Assembly: GCF_022014595.1 (NCBI RefSeq)
Contig: NZ_CP091740.1
Span: 682,001 to 746,000, forward strand
Source: Solitalea lacus
GTDB lineage: Bacteria; Bacteroidota; Bacteroidia; Sphingobacteriales; Sphingobacteriaceae
DNA length: 64,000 nt
Reading direction: 5' to 3'
Positions 13,935 to 20,481 of the stretch are shown here, piece after piece. How positions within the stretch are numbered: position 1 is the stretch's first letter; each line of letters begins with the position of its first letter. The translations under genes were made by a program, and so were the position numbers. The notes under the pieces are model-generated. The model made no database searches and was not told where the DNA came from. It saw only the letters and a program-made list of their open reading frames with translations.

Positions 13935-14723
13935 ATGACAATCGATATGTATCAGGTTGATGCCTTTAGTTCTCAATTGTTTAAGGGGAATCCTGCTGCA
14001 GTATGTATTTTGAATGAATGGCTAACTGATAAACAGTTGGGTTGTATTGCGGCTGAAAATAATCTTTCTGCAACCGCTTTTCTTGTTAACAAGGAAGAGT
14101 ATTTTGAACTACGGTGGTTTACCCCAGAGGTGGAGGTGATGTTATGTGGACATGCTACGATTGCCTGTGCCTTGGTGCTGTACGATGAATTAGGCTATAC
14201 AAAAAATGAAATTTTATTTGAAACAAAAAGTGGAAGAATAAGTGTTAGGAAGGAAAATAAAATGTTTGTGCTAAACTTTCCGAAAGATGAGCCGGTTTGG
14301 GTTGAAGAAGTGCCGTGGCAACTAATTGAAGGATTAAATTGTTCGATTGTTGAAGTGTGGAAAGGTAATACTGACTACATGGTGGTAATACAAACTCAAA
14401 GTGAAATTGAACAACTCAAGCTCGATCTGCAAGTAATCAGTACGATAGAAGCAAGAGGTGTAATAGTTACTTCCATTGGTGATGAAGTTGATTTTGTTTC
14501 TCGTTTTTTTGCTCCACAGTCTGGAATTAATGAAGATCAGGTAACGGGTTCTGCACACGCTTTGCTTACGCCTTATTGGGCAAATAAATTAAATAAAACC
14601 ACCTTTTATGCCCGACAATTATCAAAAAGGGGTGGCAACTTAAAATGCAGATTGCTCGATGATAGGGTTGAAGTTGCAGGAACTGCCAAATTGTATTTGA
14701 AAGGTCAAATCTTTATAGAATGA
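13935..14723 (+). CDS. PhzF-family protein lacking the catalytic glutamate
   Basis: A 262-residue two-domain protein of the PhzF/diaminopimelate-epimerase fold. Recognisable parts are YQVDAFSSQLFKGNPAAVCIL at the N-terminus, LRWFTPEVEVMLCGHATIACA near residues 65-85, and EDQVTGSAHALLTPYW near 205. PhzF uses Glu45 in NLSES as its acid/base. Here the aligned segment is NLSATAF, with Ala46 in that place (codon GCA, read directly). This protein therefore probably does not do PhzF chemistry, though fold and substrate pocket may be kept. The ATGA overlap with the next gene (14720-14723) indicates translational coupling with a VOC protein. The physiological role of most non-phenazine members is unknown. 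Confidence 0.85.
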   Translation: MTIDMYQVDAFSSQLFKGNPAAVCILNEWLTDKQLGCIAAENNLSATAFLVNKEEYFELRWFTPEVEVMLCGHATIACALVLYDELGYTKNEILFETKSGRISVRKENKMFVLNFPKDEPVWVEEVPWQLIEGLNCSIVEVWKGNTDYMVVIQTQSEIEQLKLDLQVISTIEARGVIVTSIGDEVDFVSRFFAPQSGINEDQVTGSAHALLTPYWANKLNKTTFYARQLSKRGGNLKCRLLDDRVEVAGTAKLYLKGQIFIE

Positions 14724-15379
14724 AAATACACAGTCTTAAACTGAAAACAAGAAACCTGAGTGCCATTGAGCTTTTTTACGGCAAACAGCTGGGGCTGCTT
14801 TATTCAAAAAGCAATGATTCTGTTATTCAGTTTAAGATTGGAGATTCTATGCTGATTTTTGAACAAGCAGACAGCATGCTAAATTATTGTTATCATTTTG
14901 CTTTTAATATTCCTTGTAACCAACTTGAAAATGCAATAGAATGGATTGGCAACTATGTTAATTTATTGCCTGTTGATAATGTGGGGAATCAAATTGCAAA
15001 TTTCACTAATTGGAATGCTCGTTCCATTTACTTTTTTGATCCTGTGGGTAATATTGTTGAGTTTATAGTGCGGTTTAATCTTAAAAACGAAGTGTCCGAA
15101 GTATTTTCAGCAAATTCATTATTGAGTTTAAGTGAGATTGGAATTATTGTTAGTGATATTAATGTTGCAATTGCGGATTTTAAAGAACGCTATGAACTTA
15201 AGGTTTTCGTTCCCTCTACTGCATCTGATCATTTTGTGGCAATGGGTAATGATAGGGGGCTGTTTATTCTTTCCACTTTAAACCGGCATTGGTTTCCTAC
15301 TAAAATTCCGGCCGTATCTTATCCAACGGAGGTTAGATTTGAGAATGAAAAGGGCATGGTTTACGAAATAATGTTTTAA
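14720..15379 (+). CDS. VOC-superfamily (glyoxalase/dioxygenase fold) protein
   Basis: A 219-residue protein with two vicinal-oxygen-chelate modules. The first starts HSLKLKTRNLSAIELFYGKQLGL and includes ARSIYFFDPVGNIVEFI. The second starts LSEIGIIVSDINVAIADFKERYELKV. The FxDPxGNxxEF motif is a common metal-ligand strand (final Glu); other ligands are less clear. Function is not predictable: the fold covers glyoxalase I, dioxygenases and antibiotic-binding proteins. It is translationally coupled to the PhzF-like gene, so the two may act on one small molecule. It ends 75 nt before the threonine leader peptide. Confidence 0.75.
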   Translation: MKIHSLKLKTRNLSAIELFYGKQLGLLYSKSNDSVIQFKIGDSMLIFEQADSMLNYCYHFAFNIPCNQLENAIEWIGNYVNLLPVDNVGNQIANFTNWNARSIYFFDPVGNIVEFIVRFNLKNEVSEVFSANSLLSLSEIGIIVSDINVAIADFKERYELKVFVPSTASDHFVAMGNDRGLFILSTLNRHWFPTKIPAVSYPTEVRFENEKGMVYEIMF

Positions 15380-15404
15380 AATTTGCATATTATTAATGTT
15401 TTAT

Positions 15405-15434
15405 TTTGAATTGTTAATAAAAGTTTTAAGTTTG
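15405..15434 (+). promoter_or_regulatory. Complete Bacteroidota promoter of the threonine operon
   Basis: -33 TTTG at 15405-15408, an 18-nt spacer, and -7 TAAGTTTG at 15427-15434. This is the only candidate in the window where I found both elements at good spacing. Transcription would start near 15441, about 13 nt before the leader-peptide GTG. Confidence 0.7.
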
Positions 15435-15453
15435 CGTTAGATAATTAATAATA

Positions 15454-15561
15454 GTGAAAGTCGCGCAATTAAATATTGATACTTTAACCATCACCGCCCT
15501 GGTGATTGTTTGCGCTATTTCTATTATTACCACCACAATTATTACCCCTTTGGGGGTATAA
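15454..15561 (+). CDS. thrL: Threonine operon leader peptide (Thr/Ile-rich)
   Basis: A 35-codon ORF starting at GTG, with no other usable start in frame, ending TAA at 15559-15561. It has seven Thr and eight Ile codons. The densest run is residues 22-31, read as I-S-I-I-T-T-T-I-I-T; another is T-L-T-I-T at residues 10-14. This is the composition of attenuation leader peptides such as enterobacterial ThrL, where stalling at Thr and Ile codons governs read-through. It sits about 13 nt after a predicted start site and 102 nt before thrA. A six-bp hairpin, TACCCC (15543-15548) with GGGGTA (15553-15558), covers its end. Composition, position and promoter agree; the mechanism is inferred. Confidence 0.75.
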   Translation: MKVAQLNIDTLTITALVIVCAISIITTTIITPLGV

Positions 15562-15663
15562 GTATATAATTCCGCGCCTTAGGGCATTGTATTAAGTTAA
15601 TCAATCCATTACCTTTTAGAAGCCAGAAGTTTAAGTTTTGGTCTAAGTCTATTTTATACAATT
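15543..15663 (+). promoter_or_regulatory. Putative attenuator between leader peptide and thrA
   Basis: Contains TACCCC/GGGGTA at 15543-15558, GCC/GGC around 15576, and CCAGAA (15623-15628) pairing with TTTTGG (15636-15641), followed by TCTAAGTCTATTTTAT. No strong hairpin with a long T-tract is visible, so a classic terminator/antiterminator switch is not proven. A weak terminator or control of thrA translation is possible. Confidence 0.4.
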
Positions 15664-18108
15664 ATGAGAGTTTTAAAATTTGGTGGCTCATCTGTTGAAT
15701 CGGCAGAAAACATAGAAAAAGTTGTATCCATAGTTAAGAAAAAATCAAAAGAAGATAAGCTTGCAGTAGTCGTTTCAGCGTTGAGAGGGGTGACTGATAT
15801 GCTAATAGCGGCAGGAACAGCCGCTTCAAAATCTGAAGAAAGTTATAAAGAGCTTTTGAGTGAGATAGAAAACCGTCATTTGGCAGAGGTTCGAAAACTC
15901 ATTCCAATAGCAGGACAGAGTTCAGTTTTAAGCCAAGTGAAAAAGATATTGAATGATTTGGAAAATACCTGCGAGGGTGTATTTCTGATTGGTGAACTTT
16001 CGGCTAAAACTCTGGATAAGATAATGTCAAAAGGAGAATTATTATCCTCATACATCATTTCAGAGAAAATGAAGTCAGATGGATTGAATGCTTCTTTGAA
16101 AGATTCAAGGGATCTGATAAAGACTGACGCTCGTTTTGGAAAAGCATCGGTTGATTTTGAAACTACCAATTTGCGTGCATGGCAATATTTTAATCAAGCA
16201 AGCGATATAACTGTATTGCCTGGGTTTGTTGGTTCCTCAGAAAGTGGTGAAACCACTACTTTGGGCCGAGGAGGTTCCGATTATACTGCTGCGATTATTG
16301 CCGGAGCTTTAAATGCTGATGAGTTGGAAATATGGACAGATGTTAGCGGTATGATGACTGCTGATCCACGACTGGTTATTCAGGCTTACCCCATTGAGCA
16401 AATTTCTTATGGCGAGGCGTTTGAGTTGTCGCATTTTGGCGCCAAAGTAATTTATCCGCCAACTATTCAACCTGTTTTAGAAAAGAAAATTCCAGTTTGG
16501 GTAAAAAACACCTTTGCTCCTGATGACTCAGGTACCTTGATTCATGAAAATGGACAAAGCAATGGTAAAGATACTATGGTAAAAGGTATATCAAGTATTG
16601 ATAAAATTGCTTTGCTGAGTTTGGAAGGAAGTGGTATGGTTGGAGTTCCCGGATTTTCGAAGAGACTCTTTGAATCATTGGCTCATCAAAATGTCAATGT
16701 TATTTTAATTACTCAAAGTTCATCTGAGCACTCAATTTGTGTGGCAATTAATGATGCCGACGTTATTAAAGCAAAGACAGCTATAGATAGCGAGTTTGCC
16801 TATGAAATCAGCGTGAAAAAAGTTGATCCGGTAATGATTGAGCGTGATCTCTCAATCGTGGCCCTTATTGGTGATAAGATGAAGAATCATGCCGGGGTTA
16901 GTGGTAAAATGTTTAGTGCCTTAGGTCGAAATGGTGTAAATATCAGGGCAATAGCGCAAGGATCTTCTGAGAAAAATATATCCACTGTAATTAATCAAAA
17001 GGATGTGAAAAAAGCGCTTAACGTGATTCACGAGGCCTTTTTCGAAACTCCAACTAAACAATTGAATTTGTTTATTGCAGGTGTTGGTAATGTTGGTGGC
17101 AAACTGCTCGATCAGCTTGGGAAGCAGGTGAAATTTCTAAATGAAGAGCTGCGTTTGAATGTACGTGTGGTTGGATTAGCCAATTCGAAAAGGATGGTTT
17201 TTGATGATGAGGGAATTTGTCTTGAAAGCTGGAAAGAACAGTTGGCCAATGGGCAAAATATGTCATTAAGTGAATTTGCCAAGCATGTCAAGGCAAAGAA
17301 TATGCGTAATAGTGTGTTTGTTGATAATTCGGCAAGTGAAGAAGTGGCAGGTGTGTATAAAGACTATTTAAAGAACAGTATTTCTGTTGTTACCTGTAAC
17401 AAAATTGCCGCCGCATCTGAATATCAGAATTATCGAAGTCTAAAGCTAGCCGCAATGGATCATAACGTTTCGTTCTTATTTGAAACAAATGTTGGTGCCG
17501 GTTTGCCAATTATCGGAACATTAAATGACATGGTTCGTAGTGGTGACCGTGTCCGTAAAATTGAAGCCGTTCTTTCTGGGAGTCTAAATTTCATCTTTAA
17601 TAATTTTAAAGCAGAGGTGTCTTTTGATGAGATAGTTCGCCAAGCACAGGCCGAAGGTTACACTGAGCCTGATCCGCGGATTGACTTAACTGGTACCGAT
17701 GTTAAACGAAAAATATTGATCTTGATAAGAGAAAGTGGTGTCGCAATGGAAATGGATGATATTGAAACCGTTCCATTTATGCCGGCAGATTGCCTTGAAG
17801 GAACCGTTGATGATTTTTTTGAGAAATTGAAAGAGCATAAACAGGTTTTCGATGACTTATACAAGGTTGCAGAAACAAAAGGTGAAAAATTGAAGTTTGT
17901 GGCTTCTTACGATAATGGAAAGGCTTCTGTTGGTTTAAGATCAGTTGCTCCAGATCATCCTTTGTACAAGCTGGACGGAAAAGACAATATCGTTTTGTTT
18001 ACCACCGATCGCTATCATGATCAACCATTAATTGTAAAAGGAGCAGGCGCGGGAGCCGATGTTACTGCGTCAGGCATCTTTGCTGATATAATCAAAACGG
18101 TTTTATAG
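15664..18108 (+). CDS. thrA: Bifunctional aspartate kinase / homoserine dehydrogenase
   Basis: An 814-residue fusion enzyme for the first and third steps from aspartate to homoserine. The aspartate kinase domain (about 1-295) begins VLKFGGSSVESAENIEKV and contains GFVGSSESGETTTLGRGGSDYTA. Two ACT-type regulatory segments follow (about 305-455: LLSLEGSGMVGVPGFSKRL and VALIGDKMKNHAGVSGKMF). The homoserine dehydrogenase domain starts near 463 with the NAD(P) motif LFIAGVGNVGGKLL, and includes NKIAAA, GAGLPIIGTLNDM and DVKRKILIL. Length and order match E. coli ThrA. It is first in a thrA-thrB-thrC operon behind a Thr/Ile-rich leader, so regulation by threonine supply is likely at both enzyme and transcript level. 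Confidence 0.97.
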   Translation: MRVLKFGGSSVESAENIEKVVSIVKKKSKEDKLAVVVSALRGVTDMLIAAGTAASKSEESYKELLSEIENRHLAEVRKLIPIAGQSSVLSQVKKILNDLENTCEGVFLIGELSAKTLDKIMSKGELLSSYIISEKMKSDGLNASLKDSRDLIKTDARFGKASVDFETTNLRAWQYFNQASDITVLPGFVGSSESGETTTLGRGGSDYTAAIIAGALNADELEIWTDVSGMMTADPRLVIQAYPIEQISYGEAFELSHFGAKVIYPPTIQPVLEKKIPVWVKNTFAPDDSGTLIHENGQSNGKDTMVKGISSIDKIALLSLEGSGMVGVPGFSKRLFESLAHQNVNVILITQSSSEHSICVAINDADVIKAKTAIDSEFAYEISVKKVDPVMIERDLSIVALIGDKMKNHAGVSGKMFSALGRNGVNIRAIAQGSSEKNISTVINQKDVKKALNVIHEAFFETPTKQLNLFIAGVGNVGGKLLDQLGKQVKFLNEELRLNVRVVGLANSKRMVFDDEGICLESWKEQLANGQNMSLSEFAKHVKAKNMRNSVFVDNSASEEVAGVYKDYLKNSISVVTCNKIAAASEYQNYRSLKLAAMDHNVSFLFETNVGAGLPIIGTLNDMVRSGDRVRKIEAVLSGSLNFIFNNFKAEVSFDEIVRQAQAEGYTEPDPRIDLTGTDVKRKILILIRESGVAMEMDDIETVPFMPADCLEGTVDDFFEKLKEHKQVFDDLYKVAETKGEKLKFVASYDNGKASVGLRSVAPDHPLYKLDGKDNIVLFTTDRYHDQPLIVKGAGAGADVTASGIFADIIKTVL

Positions 18109-18175: not shown

Positions 18176-19099
18176 ATGAACGAAATAAAGATATTTTCTC
18201 CCGGTACTGTTGCCAATGTGGCCTGTGGTTTTGATGTTATGGGTTTTGCTTTGGATAGCCCGGGAGATGAAATGATTGTGCGTCGTATCAATGAAAGAGT
18301 AATTAAAATTGTTAAAGCAGAAGGATTTAATCTTCCGCTTGATGCCAATAAAAATGTGGCCGGAGTGGCCTTGCTTTCAATGTTAAACGAGGTAAAAGAT
18401 GAAGTGGGGTTTGAAATAGAGATCTTCAAAAAGATAAAGCCAGGAAGCGGTATTGGCTCCAGCGCTGCCAGTTCAGCGGGAGCTGTTGTCGCGGCAAATA
18501 AACTATTGGGTGACCCGTTTTCAAAAACAGATTTAGCTCGATTTGCCATGGAAGGCGAACGGTTGGCTTCAGGTACGGCTCACGCTGATAATGTTGCCCC
18601 TGCTATTTTCGGAGGTTTCACATTGGTGCGTAGTTATCAACCACTGGATATTATTAGTATTGATACACCTGATGAGCTTTTTGCTACGGTTATTCACCCT
18701 CAAATTGAGGTGAAAACTTCTGACGCACGTGAAATATTAAAGCGAAATGTATTACTGAAAGATGCTATTCGCCAGTGGGGTAATGTGGGAGGACTTGTAG
18801 CCGGCTTAATGAAATCTGACTATGATTTAATCAGTCGATCTCTTGAAGACGCAATTGTTGAGCCGATTCGATCGATTTTGATTCCTGCTTTTCAAGAGGT
18901 AAAGCTCAAATCAAAAGAAGCAGGTGCTTTAGGAGGAGGGATTTCAGGTTCAGGTCCTTCTGTTTTTATGCTTAGCCGCGGACAAGAGACCGGAGAAAGG
19001 GTAAAAATGGTGATGGCTGAAATTTACGATAAGGTAGGGATTGAATATGATATCCATCTCTCAAAAGTGAATAAAGAGGGCGTGAAAATTATTAGTTAA
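18176..19099 (+). CDS. thrB: Homoserine kinase
   Basis: A 307-residue GHMP-family kinase that phosphorylates homoserine with ATP, the fourth step to threonine. The GHMP ATP-binding motif PGSGIGSSAASSAGAVVAA lies near residues 95-113. The N-terminal IFSPGTVANVACGFDVMGFA and C-terminal LGGGISGSGPSVFML motifs are typical of ThrB. The ATG at 18176 is 67 nt after thrA and thrC begins 80 nt later, all on the plus strand with no terminator between, so they are probably co-transcribed. Confidence 0.96.
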   Translation: MNEIKIFSPGTVANVACGFDVMGFALDSPGDEMIVRRINERVIKIVKAEGFNLPLDANKNVAGVALLSMLNEVKDEVGFEIEIFKKIKPGSGIGSSAASSAGAVVAANKLLGDPFSKTDLARFAMEGERLASGTAHADNVAPAIFGGFTLVRSYQPLDIISIDTPDELFATVIHPQIEVKTSDAREILKRNVLLKDAIRQWGNVGGLVAGLMKSDYDLISRSLEDAIVEPIRSILIPAFQEVKLKSKEAGALGGGISGSGPSVFMLSRGQETGERVKMVMAEIYDKVGIEYDIHLSKVNKEGVKIIS

Positions 19100-19179: not shown

Positions 19180-20481
19180 ATGAACTACTATAGTTTAAAT
19201 CATAATGCTCCGAATGTAAAATTCAGTGAAGCGGTAATACGTGGATTGGCTCCTGATAAAGGCTTATATTTTCCTGAGGCAATAACTCCCTTGTCCAAAG
19301 ATTTTATTGAGAATATTGAGAGTTATAGCCATGAAGAGATAGCTTTTGAAGCGGTTAGGCAATTTGCAGGAGATGAGTTAAGTGAAGCAGAATTAAAGCG
19401 AATTGTGGCTGAAACTGTCAGTTTTGACTTTCCTTTAGTGCAAGTCGAACCTAATGTGTATTCGCTTGAGCTTTTTCATGGGCCAACATTGGCTTTTAAA
19501 GATGTAGGAGCTCGCTTTATGGCGCGCTGTCTGGGTGCTTTTTCAAAGTTTGATGAGAAAAAGGTCACAGTTTTGGTTGCAACATCAGGAGATACCGGAG
19601 GCGCCGTTGCAGATGGCTTTTTAGGTGTTCCAGGTGTGGATGTGGTAATTCTTTACCCGAGTAAGAAGGTTAGTGATATTCAGGAAAAACAACTGACAAC
19701 CCTCGGTCAGAATATTAGTGCATTGGAAGTTGAAGGTACTTTTGATGATTGCCAACGAATGGTAAAAACAGCTTTTCTTGATGAAGAGCTGACTAGTGTA
19801 CTTAATTTAACTTCAGCAAACTCAATTAATGTTGCTCGTTGGCTGCCACAAATGTTCTATTACTTTTTTGCCTATCGTCAACTTAGGGATAAGTCAAAGA
19901 AATTAGTGGTTTCAGTTCCTAGCGGTAACTTTGGAAACATTTGTGCTGGAATGGTTGCTAAAAAGTTGGGGTTGCCAATAGATTTGTTTGTAGCTTCAAC
20001 AAATGCCAATAAAGTAGTGACCGAGTATTTGCAAACTGGTAATTATTCTCCTAAAGCTTCGGTTCAAACTATTTCAAATGCTATGGATGTGGGTGACCCA
20101 AGCAATTTTGTACGTATAGAACAGCTACATAATAAGGATTTTGATTTGCTTAAATCTTCTTTATTAAGCTTTAGCTATACTGACGATGAAACTCGTGAAG
20201 CGATACGTTTAGTTCATAAAGATACTGGTTATACGCTAGAGCCGCATGGAGCCGTAGGCTACCTAGGTTTGAAAGCTGCTCTTAGAGAGGCCCCTGAGAT
20301 GCAGGGAGTTTTTCTAGAAACAGCACATCCTTGTAAGTTTATCGATGTGGTTGAACGTACTTTGAAAGAAAAGGTAATTATACCTGCCAAATTGGAAAGT
20401 TTGTTGCTTAAGGAGAAAGTGTCAATTTTGATCAAAAATGATTATCAGCAATTGAAAGAGTACCTTTTGAAAAAGGGTTGA
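19180..20481 (+). CDS. thrC: Threonine synthase
   Basis: A 433-residue fold-type II PLP enzyme that converts O-phosphohomoserine to threonine. The PLP lysine is in FHGPTLAFKDVGARFM (near residue 107), and ATSGDTGGAVADGF is the Ser/Asp/Gly phosphate-binding loop. SANSINVARWLPQMFYY and SGNFGNICAGM are further family motifs. Its length puts it in the E. coli/yeast ThrC class, not the shorter plant-like class. Last gene of the thr operon; a long imperfect inverted repeat follows 28 nt after the stop. Confidence 0.96.
   Translation: MNYYSLNHNAPNVKFSEAVIRGLAPDKGLYFPEAITPLSKDFIENIESYSHEEIAFEAVRQFAGDELSEAELKRIVAETVSFDFPLVQVEPNVYSLELFHGPTLAFKDVGARFMARCLGAFSKFDEKKVTVLVATSGDTGGAVADGFLGVPGVDVVILYPSKKVSDIQEKQLTTLGQNISALEVEGTFDDCQRMVKTAFLDEELTSVLNLTSANSINVARWLPQMFYYFFAYRQLRDKSKKLVVSVPSGNFGNICAGMVAKKLGLPIDLFVASTNANKVVTEYLQTGNYSPKASVQTISNAMDVGDPSNFVRIEQLHNKDFDLLKSSLLSFSYTDDETREAIRLVHKDTGYTLEPHGAVGYLGLKAALREAPEMQGVFLETAHPCKFIDVVERTLKEKVIIPAKLESLLLKEKVSILIKNDYQQLKEYLLKKG

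Follow-up and report, generated by a model that had tools for sequence, protein, structure and literature searches.

Attenuation in its textbook form needs a terminator and an antiterminator. The enterobacterial thr attenuator thrL (Rfam family Thr_leader, RF00506) is the system with which a thr leader is compared here. In the tna operon of E. coli, free Trp makes the ribosome stall at the stop codon of the leader, so that a Rho site is blocked. For Bacteroidetes, attenuators are said to have been listed in the comparative study of Vitreschak and colleagues in 2004. According to the sections of PMC4824070 used here, E. coli terminator hairpins up to about 27 nt from a stop codon are repressed by the ribosome at that codon, and the terminators of amino-acid attenuators sit more than 20 bp from the leader. 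Rho-dependent control was suggested for the cys leaders of Mycobacterium in the excerpt of PMC1262725 considered here, which names the leader of the E. coli tna operon as a Rho case. For Flavobacterium psychrophilum, strong indications of leader peptides ahead of amino-acid operons were reported, together with new structured 5' elements, for example those of pheA and hisG (PMC9723704); the main text of that study does not contain the word threonine, and its section 19 mentions neither a thr leader nor a stop hairpin nor a class without terminator. In the open-licence papers searched, in the portions accessible, no account was found of a Bacteroidota thr leader or stop hairpin.

The locus analysed here belongs to Solitalea lacus (genome of 4.40 Mb in one contig) and lies in a window, the whole stretch of DNA that was analysed, of 64,000 nucleotides. 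An earlier note had described a 35-codon, GTG-initiated ORF with seven Thr and eight Ile codons, clustered near its end, ahead of thrA; the ORF was confirmed in the sequence (translation VKVAQLNIDTLTITALVIVCAISIITTTIITPLGV), and thrA, thrB and thrC were identified by NCBIfam models (Table 1). Codons 22 to 31 read Ile-Ser-Ile-Ile-Thr-Thr-Thr-Ile-Ile-Thr, and among the 709 window ORFs of 20-80 aa this was the sole one with 9 Thr + Ile inside 12 residues. The gene preceding the leader ends at 15379, and thrA starts 102 nt past the leader stop codon. That upstream gene (14720-15379) had no NCBIfam match and ends 25 nt before the -33 element, and the gene at 13935-14723 was assigned by NCBIfam to the PhzF family of isomerases. 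The putative promoter TTTG-N18-TAAGTTTG (15405-15434) was conserved in the four aligned Solitalea; taken alone, this pattern is weak evidence (2 occurrences in the window vs 0.78 expected by chance, and at least 2 in 18 of 100 shuffles). Across the hairpin-bearing leaders described below, TAnnTTTG was located 40-190 nt 5' of the hairpin in 102 of 114, compared with 11 of 114 shuffled. The folding energy of the leader region (15430-15680) was by itself unremarkable (z -1.70); the evidence for the leader is comparative.

Table 1. Features of the thr leader and operon of Solitalea lacus, with positions in the window
Feature	Position	Strand	Remarks
-33 element TTTG, Bacteroidota sigma-A type promoter (putative)	15405..15408	+	kept in 4 Solitalea
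-7 element TAAGTTTG (putative)	15427..15434	+	kept in 4 Solitalea
Leader peptide ORF	15454..15561	+	GTG start, 35 codons, TAA stop 15559-15561
GCGCA, 5' arm of predicted stem inside ORF	15463..15467	+	pairs with 15511-15515; RNAalifold, 4 Solitalea
UGCGC, 3' arm of predicted ORF-internal stem	15511..15515	+	RNAalifold, 4 Solitalea
Ile/Thr codon run I22-T31, proposed stalling region	15517..15546	+	kept in 4 Solitalea
Stop hairpin hp1, UACCCC-UUUG-GGGGUA	15543..15558	+	5' arm carries last Thr codon ACC in frame
Conserved tail TATATAATTCCG	15563..15574	+	motif found de novo in 84 loci
Predicted hairpin before thrA	15615..15647	+	about where flavobacterial hp2 sits; weakly supported, 4 Solitalea
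thrA, bifunctional aspartate kinase / homoserine dehydrogenase I	15664..18108	+	NF006959 equivalog, 1043 bits, cut-off 726
thrB, homoserine kinase	18176..19099	+	TIGR00191 and NF002288 above cut-off
thrC, threonine synthase	19180..20481	+	TIGR00260 above cut-off

The earlier note had proposed that relatives be searched for a conserved short ORF with Thr/Ile codons. Such an ORF was present in all four Solitalea, with GTG, ATG, ATG and TTG as start codons, and leaders of the same plan stood before thrA in 117 of 195 Bacteroidota upstream regions; the missing conservation that the note had named as its refutation was not observed. The amino-acid sequence of I22-T31 was the same across the four Solitalea save for one inserted Thr codon in locus L004; the N-terminal half was variable, and the segment from TGCGCTATTTCT to GGGGGT was almost base-invariant in the four genomes apart from that extra codon. 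The tail and the promoter elements were also kept. This pattern is expected where the final codons of a leader and its RNA are what counts, and not for a protein. The GTG start, called unusual in the first description, is a minority choice yet an ordinary one, the first possible starts after the promoter being 85 ATG, 11 GTG and 5 TTG in 101 leaders. One detail of that description required correction. The hairpin had been thought to cover the stop codon; in S. lacus it ends directly before TAA, and it is in other taxa that the stop codon lies inside the hairpin loop or the 3' arm.

The comparative survey covered the regions upstream of fused thrA in the family and class of Solitalea, with 149 Flavobacteriaceae genomes, 197 class genomes and named contigs. 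Five loci without a found start (L221, L243, L253, L264 and L266) were left out and three duplicates were removed, which gave 195 regions. In ten loci the usual start motif of ThrA was missing (L021, L025, L049, L087, L095, L099, L121, L123, L128 and L144), and the match coordinate was used to place them; the counts include two of these as hairpin, one as terminator and seven as neither, and some of the seven may be misplaced. The hairpin pattern was sought from about -330 to -60 relative to thrA and chosen irrespective of reading frame, and it was found in 117 of the 195 regions compared with 18 of 1950 shuffled regions. The 149 Flavobacteriaceae genomes yielded 111 loci, of which 108 were analysed (hairpin in 89, none in 19). 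Among the 32 thrA loci of Solitalea's own family, 25 had a leader with a terminator, 4 had the stop hairpin (the four Solitalea) and 3 had neither. The hairpin was also detected in 11 of 36 loci from other families of the class and in 14 of 22 from named contigs. Neither architecture was seen in L005 and 52 further regions among the 195, which counts against the main reading given below.

In every one of the 117 loci, the hairpin started with an in-frame ACC (Thr), and when the frame was set by this ACC, 114 of the 117 were open across the 11 codons before it. These 11 codons (117 loci, ACC uncounted) contained 31.0% Thr and 19.0% Ile, vs 1.2% and 0.7% Thr and 3.7% and 3.0% Ile in the two other frames of the same stretch, and 11.2% Thr and 12.3% Ile in the rest of the same leaders. 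At least two Thr codons were present in 101 of 117 loci; the other 16 had fewer, with a minimum of 0. By these counts the signal comes mainly from Thr and less strongly from Ile, and the enrichment of both, stronger for Thr, fits the dual Thr and Ile sensing proposed earlier. Judged from its sequence and that of its relatives, the ORF is very probably a Thr/Ile-sensing leader peptide. The stop codon drifted, lying 6-15 nt after the start of ACC in 102 of 117 loci, in the loop, in the 3' arm or just after it.

The predicted pairing of hp1 without a ribosome had a median of 0.99 (114 loci). A motif search restricted to hairpin-bearing loci (L013 and L027 left out) returned de novo, in 84 loci, the conserved tail (TATATANNYTCCG) as TATATA-YYYTC-(C/A/G)G. 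Its best position was 18-22 nt after the start of ACC in 69 of 84 loci, and its log-likelihood was 256 with 12 restarts, vs 40-52 in four shuffled sets with 3 restarts. The window contained a single hairpin plus tail, and none of 100 shuffles contained any. In 19 closely alignable, hand-chosen flavobacterial leaders, two further helices covaried, one inside the ORF (hp0; 7 of 8 pairs changed on both sides somewhere) and one between leader and thrA (hp2; 4 of 8), and 4 of 5 pairs of hp1 never varied; the observed values were reached by 0 of 500 shuffles and slid versions were far lower, but the structure had been derived from the same alignment. In Solitalea, the five pairs of GCGCA:UGCGC were all invariant among the four. 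The leaders of family f15 spelled the hairpin differently and kept the stop codon unpaired in the loop, as ACGGG-G(stop)-CCCGU in L011, L244 and L248 and as ACGGGG-UGA-UCCCGU in L249, with three pairs only in L242. This argues that the hairpin at the stop is itself selected. The f15 thr leaders of L011 and L244 carry a CATATTCCC tail. The comparisons thus far, with those of terminators below, supported the ORF, its frame and Thr/Ile codons, the hairpin, the tail at near-fixed distance, the putative promoter and the apparent lack of a recognisable canonical terminator.

From this arrangement we infer a transcription start, stalling, a direction of effect and a non-intrinsic off step. Transcription would start at about 15440 and the leader would be translated. 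When Thr and Ile are plentiful, the ribosome would pass the codon run, terminate at 15559 and depart; hp1 could then fold, and transcripts would tend not to reach thrA, either ending or being lost. When Thr or Ile is short, the ribosome would halt on the Thr/Ile codons just 5' of hp1 and hold it open physically, and RNA polymerase would continue into thrA. The sensing step follows from the codons, their frame and their position. Timing would matter, because a ribosome at the stop codon would itself block hp1. Given the distances in the consulted part of PMC4824070, a hairpin at the stop codon is at the wrong site for a classical terminator and suits an element that folds after the ribosome has left. 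The off step may be premature termination that depends on hairpin and tail, most simply through Rho or a pause and not intrinsic. The stretch from hairpin to thrA had 16.8% C vs 9.3% G across the 117 loci, as Rho would favour; the 102-nt spacer of Solitalea has 16 of each. The main reading, that the leader ribosome reports charged Thr-tRNA and probably Ile-tRNA and that an hp1- and tail-dependent premature loss precedes thrA, is in our judgement rather likely, and the way in which the operon is switched off is probably unfamiliar.

The ribosome at the leader end could also govern mRNA decay or thrA translation, that is, a step after transcription. The window scan detected no U-tract terminator ahead of thrA (15380-15664, score at least 16), hp2 covaries in the flavobacterial subgroup, and terminator-free cys leaders with Cys codons near the stop have been described in Mycobacterium (excerpt of PMC1262725), all of which is consistent with such control. 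In the best fold of the S. lacus window, ATTGTAT at 15586-15592 also pairs with the ATACAAT that immediately precedes the thrA start; however, this start-site pairing is absent from the folds of the other three Solitalea, and the flavobacterial consensus leaves the thrA start open. We regard control after transcription as unlikely.

A classical attenuator, in which the Bacteroidota RNA polymerase would read hp1, or a hairpin further on whose U-tract is poor, as a terminator, was weighed against the distribution of terminators. In its favour are the stability of hp1, the A/U-rich sequence after it, and the existence in the phylum of leaders with U-tract terminators. Terminators of this type (score at least 18) were found in 29 of 195 regions, 25 of which had a Thr/Ile leader; these 25 were all from Solitalea's family, with scores of 19-32. 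Upstream of hisG in eight flavobacterial genomes, a His-codon leader was followed by a canonical terminator in 8 of 8 (score 21-22). However, hp1 has no U-tract and 0 of the 117 hairpin regions reached a score of 18; weaker terminator-like candidates were present in 30 of them, with a best score of 16. In the same eight flavobacterial genomes, the thr leaders had the hairpin and no terminator (no candidate in six, best scores of 13 and 14 in two). Ordinary U-tract terminators are also used after genes in the window, where 27 sites scored at least 16. Of these, 23 lay outside gene proxies, 20 of the 23 being within 50 nt of a gene end; one shuffle of the + strand gave none. The scan therefore works in this genome, as it finds canonical terminators after window genes. 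We consider a classical attenuator unlikely as well.

The hisG leaders were a further source of comparison. Those of the four Solitalea, ending in HHGHHHHCA, reached a best terminator score of 10, so the terminator-free habit of Solitalea is not confined to thr. These His-rich leaders (L178, L183, L186 and L187) are of the MITKQHIALHHHTHLHHGHHHHCA type, with no U-tract terminator found, and their segments CGCGCTGC, GCAGCGAGTTTTA and TAAAACTGCGG are largely conserved and could pair alternatively. In the two hisG loci L185 and L188 of Solitalea's family, the leader ends in HHRHCGDR and a hairpin ATCGCC-ATT-GCGGCGAT lies over the last codons before TAA; by eye, this is a stop-type hairpin with no evident terminator. 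The eight flavobacterial hisG regions (L176, L177, L179-L182, L184 and L189) had an HHH core in 7 of 8, and each of the eight had a canonical terminator that resembles ACCCGTTTGA..TCAAACGGGTTTTT. For ilvD, tried as a second control, a terminator candidate of at least 15 was found upstream in 8 of 16 loci, but a clear Ile/Leu/Val leader in few, and no weight was given to it.

Several further candidates were tried and set aside. Pairing of the G arm of hp1 with the pyrimidine tail as a switch gave 0.38 vs 0.40 for shuffled tails (114 loci); a short alternative GCGC pairing was noted in Solitalea, in four sequences only. In the his-type pause of E. coli, the stem lies about 11 nt from the pause; such a hairpin-stabilised pause at hp1 was rejected, the TCC-G step being roughly 15-18 nt past the stem. 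The tail was also considered as the site of a second promoter, but TAnnTTTG was not seen in it. Rfam gave no match in the 64-kb window at gathering and, at E up to 5, no thr match for the leader region, the single match in 15380-15680 (E 2.8) being unrelated; 14 flavobacterial loci and the leader region gave chance matches only. Of the proposal that this is an attenuation leader as in enterobacteria, the conserved Thr/Ile leader peptide before thrABC was supported, while a U-tract terminator was not found and the alternative pairing tested was at chance.

Whether hp1 plus tail is a general element of amino-acid operons was examined with a model (R1) built from 54 of the 84 rows, hand-picked as the cleaner ones. 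In 30 genomes, at least 33 matches (E up to 0.5) were obtained among the best 150 candidates scored per genome, 24 before thrA and 9 elsewhere. The E values were 1.8e-6 to 0.0986 for thrA, many of these matches being training sequences, and 0.0198 to 0.448 elsewhere, so that the two ranges overlap. Six of the nine matches elsewhere were inspected, three through their ORF lists and three as bare sequence; no amino-acid operon seemed to follow any of the six, and the idea was dropped. In 6 of 30 genomes, no thrA match was among the best 150 candidates of the genome.

Two further explanations were very improbable. A short protein that has a function of its own, shares its transcript with thrABC and is rich in Thr/Ile by composition would agree with an ORF kept in frame across the genus, but the N-terminal half is variable, chiefly the pre-hairpin Thr/Ile codons are common across families, the length and C-terminus change with the stop position, and no NCBIfam family matched the leader ORF. 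A chance ORF over an untranslated DNA or RNA element (hairpin and tail), for which the conservation of hp1 and tail as sequence might speak, is just as hard to credit with a Thr/Ile bias confined to the hairpin-set frame.

The history of ThrA was examined with a tree of 101 proteins (midpoint root, quick method). Twenty terminator-type ThrA formed one side of a fully supported branch. The ThrA of Solitalea grouped with Flavobacteriaceae (support 99) and adjoined that of L005 (support 81), whose genome is incomplete. L005 (G010) is of the same family as Solitalea; no Thr leader or hairpin was found upstream of its thrA in a genome that is 76% complete. L008 and L009, leaderless and also of Solitalea's family, have ThrA that group with family f15, so the ThrA of Solitalea's family are mixed anyway. 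On a plain reading of the tree, Solitalea would hold another thrA lineage than most of its family, with the leader of that lineage. Extending the main reading of a ribosome-controlled stop hairpin, we tentatively propose, as possible though below an even chance, a terminator-free class of Bacteroidota attenuators, in which a stalled ribosome opens the stop hairpin, the hairpin and TATATANNYTCCG tail commit the polymerase to a non-intrinsic stop, and the module is tied to one thr lineage.

Within one family, a single operon thus occurs in two architectures, one with a canonical terminator and one lacking it; the latter is common in Flavobacteriaceae. The leaders with a U-tract terminator (e.g. 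L022 and L028) share with Solitalea the operon, the regulatory codons and the family. Their terminators are mostly GCCTTCCTC..GAGGAAGGC-TTTTT, and in several of them a GGAGGAAG stretch occurs where the leader ends, whereas Solitalea has neither, and the ThrA of the two types fall in separate clades. Eight flavobacterial genomes have both kinds, a terminator for hisG and a terminator-free thr leader, which makes terminator-free leader control directly testable; the thr leader also offers a natural Thr/Ile sensor in Bacteroidota. The Solitalea leader does not appear to be the enterobacterial device. It resembles the enterobacterial thr attenuator in having a Thr/Ile-rich leader directly before thrABC, with a ThrA that passes the bifunctional equivalog model, but it differs in that no Rfam match, U-tract terminator or antiterminator was found for it, and in that its hairpin ends the ORF itself. 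Like the Mycobacterium cys leaders, the Solitalea thr leader has regulatory codons beside the stop and no terminator; in the excerpt of PMC1262725 used here, no conserved terminator-capable hairpin is reported for the cys leaders, whereas the Bacteroidota thr leaders conserve a stop hairpin and tail. The control proposed for Solitalea shares a feature with the tna operon of E. coli: a ribosome at the leader end would decide on onward transcription in the absence of an intrinsic terminator. It would differ from tna in the cause of the stall, which in Solitalea would occur on codons short of charged tRNA.
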